A stretch of DNA of 64,000 nt from Clostridium sp. DSM 17811 (GTDB lineage: Bacteria; Bacillota; Clostridia; Clostridiales; Clostridiaceae): contig NZ_JAHLDU010000006.1 in the NCBI RefSeq assembly GCF_018861905.1, positions 124,001-188,000 on the forward strand, read 5' to 3'. Of this stretch, positions 13,057 through 56,909 are shown one piece after another. Position 1 is the first letter of the stretch, and every line of letters starts with the position of its first letter. Position numbers and translations under genes: made by a program. The notes under the pieces are model-generated. The model was given only the letters and a program-made list of their open reading frames with translations. It was not told the origin of the DNA and ran no database searches.

Positions 13057-13101
13057 TAAATTAACGTGATATATAATAATTCATATATAATACACCAATA
13101 A

Positions 13102-13194
13102 ACAACTTCCTACGCTGGCATTATCCAGTTCAGGTCATAGGGTCAAAGAATTTCGATTCTTGTTCTCAGTTGGCATATCCAACTCCCCTGTGCT
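13102..13194 (-). promoter_or_regulatory. TPP (THI-box) riboswitch
   Basis: The minus strand carries the conserved TPP aptamer elements in order: CAGGGGAG, CTGAGA, GACCCTATGACCTGA, then CTGGATAATGCCAGCG and TAGGAAG. It is about 90 nt and lies directly upstream of a strong terminator hairpin and the thiWD-cytX-thiME operon. Established: TPP binding to this class lowers thiamine gene expression. The layout here indicates control by premature termination. Confidence 0.97.
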
Positions 13195-13223
13195 ATTTTA
13201 TTCTTTTTTATTTCATGTCTCTA

Positions 13224-45688: not shown

Positions 45689-45712
45689 GGGAACCTCAAA
45701 TAAGAGTCTCCC
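45689..45712 (-). terminator. probable terminator after the GGDEF gene
   Basis: The minus strand reads GGGAGACTC-TTATTT-GAGGTTCCC with GC then TTTT, about 85 bases after the stop. Confidence 0.5.
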
Positions 45713-45796
45713 ACCCTAGAAACAAATTTCTTGGAATCAAACTTTATATTAGTTTGTCCAACCGATAACAAATATATATTGTAGTATATCACATGT

Positions 45797-52136: not shown

Positions 52137-52213
52137 TGGTGCTCCATCAGGGAATTGAACCCTGGACCCCCTGATTAAGAGTCAGGTGCTCTAACCAGCT
52201 GAGCTAATGAAGC
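52137..52213 (-). tRNA. tRNA-Lys (anticodon CTT)
   Basis: A complete 77-nt cloverleaf on the minus strand: acceptor GCTTCAT / ATGGAGC, D arm with AGCTCAGCTGGTTAGAGC, anticodon stem CCTGA / TCAGG around loop CTCTTAA (anticodon CTT), T arm with GGTTCAATTCC, and an encoded CCA end. Single-copy locus between the zinc-ribbon and nitroreductase genes, with its own promoter and terminator. Confidence 0.95.
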
Positions 52214-54756: not shown

Positions 54757-55560
54757 TTATTCTACCCACCAAGTATCTTTTGTTGAAACTGGTAAATGCC
54801 TTTTGTGTTTAGATACATTGTATAACTTCAATATCTTTGCCTCATATTCATTAGAAATCTCTTCACCTCTTAAATACATACAAACTTGATGATTTAATTC
54901 TGTTACTTCTTCTAAATTTGATTTATTATCCCACATACCGCTTGTAGATACCTTATCAATTATAGATTTAGGAGCATTAAATATCTTAGCCATTTCATAA
55001 ATTATACCTTTTGTTATCCCAGCAAGTGGTTTTACATCTGCAGCATCATCGCCAAACTTAGTTACCATTCCTAGAGTTAATTCAGCAACATTTGTGCAGC
55101 CTGCAACTAAAACATCATAAACTTCAGCTATTCTATATATAACTGTCATTCTTATTCTAGATTTTGTATTGCCTATATCTACTTTTGAAGAAGGCAAATT
55201 ATGGAGAAGATCAAGTGATTCATTTACAGGTCCTGTTATATCATAAGTTCTAAATACATCAGGTTGTATTACATGCTTCTCAATTTCTAATTCCTCTATA
55301 TCTGGATTAATTCCAAAAGGAAGCGATAAATTGATTAGCTCAAGTCCTGATTTTTTGATAAGCATACTAGTAACAAAACTGTCTACTCCACCTGTTAGAT
55401 TACATACGTAGCCTTTTTTACCAGCAAGCTGCGCATATTTTTTTAAAAAAGTACAAGTTTCCTCTATCATTCTATATGCGTATTTTTCATCCGACTCATC
55501 TTGAAGAGGACAAGGTATACCAAATTCACTCATTATCTCATCTTGTTTAATTTTATCCAT
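54757..55560 (-). CDS. nadE: NadE-like NAD+ synthetase, copy 1
   Basis: A 267-residue N-type ATP pyrophosphatase related to ammonia-dependent NAD+ synthetase; no glutaminase domain. The pyrophosphate loop reads TGGVDS (56-61) instead of SGGxDS. KVDIGNTKSRIRMTVIYRIAEVYD and FGDDAADVKPL fit NadE. The usual C-terminal GQTDE loop is replaced by NKSNLEE. It is gap-free alignable to the next gene upstream over its full length, roughly three-quarters identical by eye. Substrate may be deamido-NAD or a variant. Confidence 0.8.
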   Translation of the reverse strand: MDKIKQDEIMSEFGIPCPLQDESDEKYAYRMIEETCTFLKKYAQLAGKKGYVCNLTGGVDSFVTSMLIKKSGLELINLSLPFGINPDIEELEIEKHVIQPDVFRTYDITGPVNESLDLLHNLPSSKVDIGNTKSRIRMTVIYRIAEVYDVLVAGCTNVAELTLGMVTKFGDDAADVKPLAGITKGIIYEMAKIFNAPKSIIDKVSTSGMWDNKSNLEEVTELNHQVCMYLRGEEISNEYEAKILKLYNVSKHKRHLPVSTKDTWWVE

Positions 55561-55792: not shown

Positions 55793-56596
55793 TTATTCAA
55801 CCCACCAAGTATCTTTTAACGAAACTGGTAAATGTCTTTTGTGTTTAGAAATTTCATATAGCTTTAATATTTTTTCTTCATATACTTTTTCTATATCTCC
55901 ACCTCTTAAATATATACAAACCTGATGATTTAGTTCTGTTACTATTTTTTGATTTGTTCCATTATCCCATACACCAGTTGTAGATAGCTTATCAATTATA
56001 GATTGAGGTGCATTAAGTATTTTTGCCATTTCATATACTACACCTTTTGTTATTCCTGCAAGTGGTTGTACATCTGCTGCACCATCACCATATTTAGTCA
56101 TCATTCCGAGTGTCAACTCTGCAGCATTTGATACACCAGCAACTAAAACATCATAAACTTCAGCTATTCTATATAACACAGTCATTCTTATTCTAGCTTT
56201 TGTATTTCCGATATCTACCTTTGAAGAAGGTAAATCACGTAAAAGTTCAATAGATTCAATAACAGGACCCATTATGTCATAGGTTTTGAAAACCTCTGGT
56301 TTTATCACACATTTAGCTTTTTCTACATCATCTATATCTTGTTTTATTCCAAAAGGAAGTGATAAATTAATTAATTCTAGTCCAGATTTTCTAATTAGCA
56401 TACTTGTAACGAAGCTATCTACACCACCTGTAAGGTGACAAACATAACCTTTTTTTCCTGTAGCTTTAGCATATTTTTTTAAAAAATCAGAAGTTTCTTC
56501 TATCATTCTATTTGCATATTTTTCATCTGACTCATCTTTAAAAGGATGAGGTATAGCAAATTCTTTCATGATTTTTTGTTGCTTAATTTTATCCAT
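55793..56596 (-). CDS. nadE: NadE-like NAD+ synthetase, copy 2
   Basis: A 267-residue paralogue of the preceding entry, same length, in tandem and same strand. TGGVDS at 56-61, SSKVDIGNTKARIRMTVLYRIAE and KYGDGAADVQPL are present; the latter is closer to canonical NadE (YGDGxADI) than copy 1 (FGDDAAD). GQTDE is again absent (NGTNQK). The 18 bases ATTATAACACATATTATA upstream of this gene (56628-56645) recur exactly upstream of copy 1 (55592-55609), so the duplication took the promoter along. Confidence 0.82.
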   Translation of the reverse strand: MDKIKQQKIMKEFAIPHPFKDESDEKYANRMIEETSDFLKKYAKATGKKGYVCHLTGGVDSFVTSMLIRKSGLELINLSLPFGIKQDIDDVEKAKCVIKPEVFKTYDIMGPVIESIELLRDLPSSKVDIGNTKARIRMTVLYRIAEVYDVLVAGVSNAAELTLGMMTKYGDGAADVQPLAGITKGVVYEMAKILNAPQSIIDKLSTTGVWDNGTNQKIVTELNHQVCIYLRGGDIEKVYEEKILKLYEISKHKRHLPVSLKDTWWVE

Positions 56597-56706
56597 TTAG
56601 AGCCTCCTTAAACTTATGTATACGATTATTATAACACATATTATACTATTTTCACCATATGATAACATCTAATATTAATTAAATCATCTCCTGGGTCGCT
56701 GCAATA

Positions 56707-56907
56707 TTAACGACTTCAGAAGGAGATTTATATTCCCGCTGAAATTTTCTATTTGTTAGGGTATGTATCCTCTGGGTAGATCTCTGGGGTAGATAACAAT
56801 TCTCAATTGTTATCCTCCCACTTATAGAAGTTGGAGACGTTCCTTCTGAAATGTCGTTAAAAATAAAAAAAAGCCTCTAAAATTAACATACAATTTTAGA
56901 GGCTTTT
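56707..56907 (+). ncRNA. candidate structured RNA of unknown class, followed by terminator
   Basis: Positions 56707-56724 and 56841-56860 pair as an 18-bp closing stem (TTAACGAC / GTCGTTAA plus TTCAGAAGGA / TCCTTCTGAA, two-base bulge). Inside are TTCTAT (56747-56752) with ATAGAA (56824-56829), a small hairpin AGGGT-ATGT-ATCCT (56758-56771), TGGG / CCCA, and an apical 10-bp hairpin GATAACAATT / AATTGTTATC (56792-56814). No reading frame fits. A strong terminator follows ten bases later on the plus strand, which favours plus-strand transcription. I cannot assign an Rfam class; 6S or another ornate Firmicute RNA are candidates. The promoter is not identified. Confidence 0.6.
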
Positions 56908-56909
56908 TA
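56865..56909. terminator. strong bidirectional terminator
   Basis: AAAAAGCCTCTAAAATT / AATTTTAGAGGCTTTTT, 17-bp stem. It ends the rnf operon on the minus strand and the candidate RNA on the plus strand. Confidence 0.9.

Follow-up and report, generated by a model that had tools for sequence, protein, structure and literature searches.

PATEs are short elements derived from IS200/IS605. REP elements are described, in the consulted part of one report, as a hairpin accompanied by a guide tetranucleotide (PMC6006769). The element presented here resembles REPs, REPINs and PATEs in being short, intergenic, hairpin-based, multicopy and gene-less, with a tetranucleotide beside its ends. However, it differs from them in that no GT[AG]G adjoins the hairpin (judged by eye), in being a fixed composite of a hairpin and a long inverted-repeat core, and in lacking a regular association with Y1 genes (in one host, no whole Y1 gene was seen).

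Another point of comparison is provided by Correia elements and RUP, MITEs that share with the element a length of about 100–180 bp, inverted repeats and a dispersed location between genes. According to the consulted part of one report, Correia elements occur in forms of 107 and 155 bp, the long one carrying about 50 bp of additional sequence internally, while the target reported for RUP is TA (PMC2229807). The long Correia form, as described there, resembles those copies of our element that carry an internal insert of about that size. In contrast to the TA given for RUP in that source, the target of the element is TTAA(A). Furthermore, unlike Correia and RUP, it has outer ends that are not inverted repeats, and no autonomous partner was found among the ends paired in two genomes (see below). 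The piggyBac family has a TTAA target, and this target is what likens the element to piggyBac/IS1380; however, a related transposase was detected in 2 of the 17 genomes of the host genus, in one of them over the cut-off. 6S RNA (RF00013) is similar in forming a long closed rod on paper, whereas the element is dispersed, mobile and without a 6S match.

To our knowledge, mobilization has been settled for few families of short, gene-less repeats. In 2007, the movement of such repeats in bacterial chromosomes was put forward as a matter for later research, in the part of the report consulted (PMC2229807). Here, we describe a repeat from the cold-loving (psychrophilic) group of Clostridium, which is its host genus. 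Our starting point was a 64-kb window (the whole stretch of Clostridium sp. DSM 17811 DNA that was analyzed), in which the feature between nadE and rnfB is the sole copy. This feature is very probably one insertion, at TTAA, of a small non-autonomous mobile DNA element that resides mostly outside genes. In the broad sense, the element is a MITE, having many unlinked copies, no coding capacity and clean empty orthologous sites; the terminal inverted repeats that MITEs in the strict sense carry at the outer ends of the unit are absent. A search of the literature for the element returned no description. The undescribed class offered as one option in the initial annotation is supported to the extent of this search, but what lacks a description there is a mobile DNA repeat and not a stand-alone RNA.

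Anatomy of the locus and of the repeat unit

The whole inserted element (H, C core and I insert, see below) spans 56679–56860 on the plus strand, as delimited by comparison of copies and by empty sites in two relatives (G001 and G004), and is bounded by TTAA on both sides. Its left end is not at 56707, as in the initial annotation, but at the TTAA of 56679. The element lies 5′ of nadE and 3′ of rnfB; the identities of rnfB and of both nadE copies are borne out by NCBIfam and Pfam. The two nadE-type NAD+ synthase genes are adjacent (54757–55560 and 55793–56596, minus strand) and encode 267 aa each. It had been claimed that the element has no reading frame and that it did not come with the nadE duplication, and both claims hold: it contains no ORF of at least 60 aa, and no second copy precedes the other nadE. 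Elsewhere in the window, a TPP riboswitch (13089–13199), a Na+ riboswitch (DUF1646; 45705–45763) and a tRNA (52140–52213), all on the minus strand, exceed their Rfam gathering scores.

Downstream of rnfB, folding reveals a terminator-like 17-bp hairpin (56868–56908, minus strand), which corresponds to the terminator previously noted beside the fold. This hairpin exists but is also found 3′ of rnfB in both element-free relatives, G001 and G004 (loci L032 and L033), and is therefore part of the rnf operon and outside the element.

The repeat unit reads, in order, TTAA, module H, TTAA and a C core of 108 nt with the terminus GTCGTTAA. It measures about 136 bp without the I insert, and 182 bp in the window copy. 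The left TTAA (56679–56682, no strand assigned) is the target site, as defined by the empty sites. Module H (56679–56710, plus strand), delineated by copy comparison and genus-wide H scoring, is a subterminal hairpin unit; the window copy has the CTCC-TGG-GTCG subtype, whose 4-bp stem is broken. The left part of the C core (56707–56768, plus strand; from the fold and copy comparison) includes the 5′ arm of the closing stem. Copy comparison further defines module I (56769–56814, plus strand), a 46-bp insert in the core that holds a 10-bp apical hairpin and is missing from most copies, and the right part of the C core (56815–56860, plus strand), which comprises an inner hairpin, the 3′ arm of the closing stem and the terminus GTCGTTAA.

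In the predicted fold, 56707–56725 pairs with 56840–56860 to form the closing stem, of 19 bp in this fold and 18 bp in the fold of the element alone, with a single AT bulge on the 3′ side. The apical hairpin (56792–56801 with 56805–56814) has 10 bp, and the inner helices are smaller, weaker and mostly absent from the centroid structure. The 154-nt core including the insert reaches −53.8 kcal/mol on the plus strand (z −5.2; 0 of 200 shuffles equally low) and a z of −5.5 on the minus strand; that both strands fold equally well is expected for an inverted repeat. The elaborate fold of the initial annotation is thus real, at z about −5 on each strand, with its bulged closing stem of 18–19 bp and its 10-bp hairpin, but the inner helices that had been drawn with them are weak.

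Of 177 genus cores, 164 have an H-like sequence (score of at least 12) on their left, and none of the 177 has one on the other side. The H arms come in compensating types: CTCC/GGAG, CACC/GGTG, CATC/GATG and CTTC/GAAG. Under a strict pattern, 53 of 74 H units are fully paired, whereas 1000 shuffles gave 32.7 on average and never more than 41; the CTCC/GTCG subtype with the broken stem, to which the window copy belongs, accounts for 11 of the 74. The closing stem of the core is 96.7% paired over 36 cores and shows double changes in 6 of 16 pairs (alignment A1, which holds 36 of 56 distinct cores and leaves out cores with an I insert or of odd length). A further helix between the left CTCCCACT and the right arm, extending the stem, was dropped, as it showed no covariation. 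At its outer ends (left of H and right of C), the H+C unit is not complementary and has no inverted repeats, judged by eye.

The I insert occurs in a minority of copies, in either of two places in the core, and 22 of the 177 genus cores exceed 140 nt, the length expected from its presence. I-like repeats also lie outside any core, at L010 1677–1720 and L046 203–246, with a further GTGCTCACAT common to both on the right; these possibly represent an independent small repeat family. At the other end of the size range, distances of 52–55 between left and right ends recur in one genome, G015 (10 of 56 paired ends), corresponding to a short core of ~72 nt that is perhaps an even smaller active form.

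Insertion at TTAA and spread among genomes

The window copy is absent from the intact nadE–rnfB gap of G001 and G004, the RnfB proteins of which are 98% and 97% identical to that of the window, respectively. In these empty gaps, the flanks join at a single TTAA in G001 and a single TTGA in G004. The syntenic copies that the initial annotation had proposed to seek in related clostridia are missing from the same gap in these two. Across the ten genomes other than the window's own whose rnfB flank was compared (nine with nadE in place and one, L034, with another neighbor), none has the element beside rnfB. Four further insertions (L101, L102, L178 and L180) have an empty counterpart, which for L102 reads TTAC in the second relative. 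Our survey drew on G001 and G004, with about 500 kb from either genome, and on about 240 kb of G000 (the window's own genome); it covered the 18 copies or fragments in these sequences. Among them, five complete insertions have a clean empty counterpart. For every one of the five, the empty site of one relative or more carries TTAA; for two of them, the site of a second relative reads TTGA in one case and TTAC in the other. The remainder of the 18 are shared copies, remnants, fragments or copies with no counterpart for comparison. Ends-only remnants, as after internal deletion, were seen at L096 7561–7595 and at the G004 site matching L159 689–824.

Immediately after the right end, 88% of 150 genus copies have an A, which the empty sites compared also show, so the target is usually TTAAA. 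TTAA is found on both sides of 102 of the 150 genus copies, which is compatible with a duplication as well as with a fixed right end (the left-end finder is a crude pattern that worked in 150 of 177 genus copies and in 23 of 31 copies of the other set). At L006, TTAG adjoins both ends.

Short palindromes can expand by slippage or gene conversion, and partial deletions of copies are seen here, which would suit a palindrome that is spread by replication slippage or gene conversion with no dedicated enzyme. However, the ends are exact, the unit is fixed and the unlinked sites have TTAA(A) as their target, all of which runs counter to such a process, and we consider it very unlikely.

A DNA search of 40 genomes (the window's own and its relatives) found the element in 17 of 17 genomes of the genus, while 0 of 23 non-genus genomes had a model-supported match; a match in G034 (E 4.6e-4) was discarded, as the covariance model did not back it. 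This covariance model (R1), which represents the core and was derived from 36 copies, gave 20 matches at 19 places in G000, one place being matched on both strands, and 4 to 124 matches in each of the 16 other genus genomes (E up to 0.01, 150 candidates scored per genome, both-strand doubles possible). A right-end pattern occurs 28, 27, 50 and 143 times in G000, G001, G004 and G015, respectively, and its reversal 0, 0, 0 and 1 times. An exact 29-nt right-end pattern was found in 30 stretches, from C. psychrophilum, C. frigoris, C. tagluense, C. bowmanii, C. lacusfryxellense, other relatives and MAGs. In G015, 131 copies or fragments were placed relative to predicted ORFs of at least 100 aa, and 127 of them are outside.

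Further afield, a phylum sample yielded matches in 0 of 397 other genomes, with 9 candidates scored in each, a depth at which low-copy hosts would be missed and at which G000 itself gave 9 of its 20 matches. A blastn search of plasmids and phages returned nothing beyond one 23-nt match (E 0.02). In viral contigs, a 17-nt pattern had four matches, with no model match at those loci, and the consensus-corrected pattern had none.

A second, distant host is the MAG Halothermothrix sp. B5_bin.9 (G436), with 113 R1 matches, or 91 under stricter filters. Its name places this MAG in the order Halanaerobiales; the Clostridium group is in Eubacteriales. No model match was found in any of 40 searched relatives of this MAG. 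The core is retained in its copies, with 76 of 108 consensus letters shared in a plain column comparison, but the H position holds a hairpin of about 10 bp by eye that is unrelated to the H of the genus. This hairpin scores at least 12 at 27 of 30 true copies (the set has 31 members, of which L393 is Clostridium-like by its flank). The two hosts have the layout in common, with a hairpin that is free in sequence, and the patchy distribution suggests horizontal spread of the element. Two copies of the MAG, L410 and L417, apparently have yet other hairpins at the H position (by eye).

RNA or DNA role of the fold

The strong fold, the compensatory changes in the core stem and the H arms, and the location 5′ of nadE and 3′ of rnfB speak for a structured RNA with a function for nadE or rnf, be it 6S-like, a riboswitch or an attenuator. 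However, there is no copy beside rnfB in the ten other genomes viewed, copies are dispersed through genomes, and the plus and minus strands fold equally. Rfam covariance models, the check that the initial annotation had proposed, gave no match to the element above the gathering threshold; at E up to 10, the element region has weak matches only, and the best of these include the hairpin of the rnf terminator. For 6S RNA (RF00013) in particular, there is no match at gathering in the window, and relaxing E to 10 brings up none near the element.

The stems also allow a direct comparison, as copies kept as RNA would show one-sided stem changes that favor G-U over A-C on the transcribed strand. The genus set has 65 G-U and 81 A-C cells, 26 of the 65 falling at a single pair, a concentration that a shared subtype would produce; the set from the MAG (with one row misassigned) has 24 and 27. 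In view of this lack of a G-U excess over A-C, copies appear to drift after insertion and not to be kept as RNA. Covariation among homologs, to which the initial annotation had pointed, is thus found as double changes in stems between subfamilies, but it comes without a G-U preference within copies. These paired changes look like subfamily marks, with the pairing conserved between subfamilies, and the evidence points to a DNA role of the structure in movement. A strong fold and covariation, taken alone, are insufficient proof of an RNA gene. The empty sites largely refute an RNA that serves nadE or rnf, which we regard as extremely improbable. The 6S-like RNA of the initial annotation, or any single-locus housekeeping RNA, is contradicted by dispersed TTAA copies, empty gaps in close relatives and the lack, on either strand, of signs that copies are kept as structured RNA.

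Candidate routes of mobilization

We propose that the gene-less element would be moved in trans by an enzyme encoded elsewhere. Its paired arms and hairpins would act as DNA that is read by the mobilizing enzyme, and each copy would decay once inserted. As to mechanism, our preference, held at slightly less than even confidence, is an IS200/IS605-like single-strand route, which best fits the ends and the orientation of the copies. In single-strand transposition like that of IS200/IS605 or REP, subterminal hairpins would be recognized and the DNA cut at a flanking tetranucleotide. Subterminal hairpins that preserve their pairing while the sequence varies, as in IS200/IS605- or REP-type elements, are indeed present, while no Y1 gene flanked by element ends was found among 30 fetched Y1 loci.

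The orientation of the copies is biased. Those pointing against the replication fork number 84 of 131 in G015 and 40 of 60 in G004, with the origins located by dnaA and, for G015, in agreement with GC skew. In the Halothermothrix MAG, 38 of 48 copies do so; these are the ones, among 91 matches, that sit on six contigs for which GC skew was sampled and assigned per contig. A second tally, overlapping those 48 copies, gave 35 of 43. As predictors of orientation, flanking gene direction has a logit z of 2.4 and the fork one of 1.6, and the copies that oppose the fork amount to 74 of 102 between tandem co-fork genes, 29 of 47 in gene-neutral positions and 4 of 11 between counter-fork genes. The bias fits single-strand transposition, without being proof of it. 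A lagging-strand reading was not taken beyond a lead, since gene direction explains the bias equally well.

End pairing in G015, with 97 of its 112 left ends and 93 of its 143 right ends, revealed no longer, gene-bearing version of the element. Four left–right pairs in this genome are 1.5–3.6 kb apart, the left end belonging to its own copy in three and to a fragment in the fourth. None of the four delimits one element, and they were rejected as autonomous copies; the pair at 3033487–3035697, the one whose intervening sequence was read, has an RNase J-like ORF (by eye) between two separate small copies. In G004, with all ends listed, there is no longer version outside one pair 2.1 kb apart, a left end at 146608 and a right end at 148681 of contig C1 in the same orientation.

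A REP/RAYT-type element could be moved by the Y1 proteins of about 305 aa that the genus encodes. Y1_Tnp matches are present in 17 of 17 genus genomes, many of them in frames of about 305 aa (14 of 30 fetched loci have frames of 305–327 aa), and hairpin units also occur without the core. However, among these 30 loci, fetched from 96 matches, one has a full copy of the element and one an H unit, and by eye no GTAG-type guide adjoins H. The Halothermothrix MAG has one partial Y1 transposase and one scrap, with no whole Y1 gene seen, although MAGs often lose IS genes. Movement by these Y1 proteins is therefore unlikely in our estimation. At L071 2061–2091 (G003), a core-less H unit interrupts a tnpB-like frame (by eye) beside an IS200-type tnpA, and host-gene bases are missing beside this unit.

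A TIR-type MITE moved by a TTAA-duplicating DDE transposase (piggyBac/IS1380-like, or of a YTAR-target family such as IS701, which prefers YTAR targets) would account for TTAA being present once before insertion and at both sides after it, as well as for the TTAG beside both ends of L006. The C core alone, moreover, has TTAA-bounded inverted repeats. The inserted unit, however, is H+C, the outer ends of which are not inverted repeats. An IS1380-type transposase (PF13701, the DDE family searched) was found in 2 of 17 genus genomes, once over the cut-off, and in neither G015 nor G000. We see a DDE transposase as possible, if on the unlikely side. That the mobilizer is something else, neither IS200/IS605-like single-strand nor DDE, is rather doubtful. 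The same doubt applies to a more specific proposal: a modular hairpin-plus-core family that psychrophilic Clostridium and the Halanaerobiales MAG would share, using a TTAA route that is neither IS1380-like nor Y1/RAYT, in which the left hairpin would be exchangeable and the core alone recognized by sequence.

Whichever enzyme is involved, the interest of this repeat family is chiefly its testable mobilizer question. Clean empty sites, together with complete genomes that contain 50 and 143 right ends, make the mobilizer huntable by genetics and biochemistry. The distant host with about 100 copies, and a good picture of conserved versus free positions, also aid the hunt for the enzyme.
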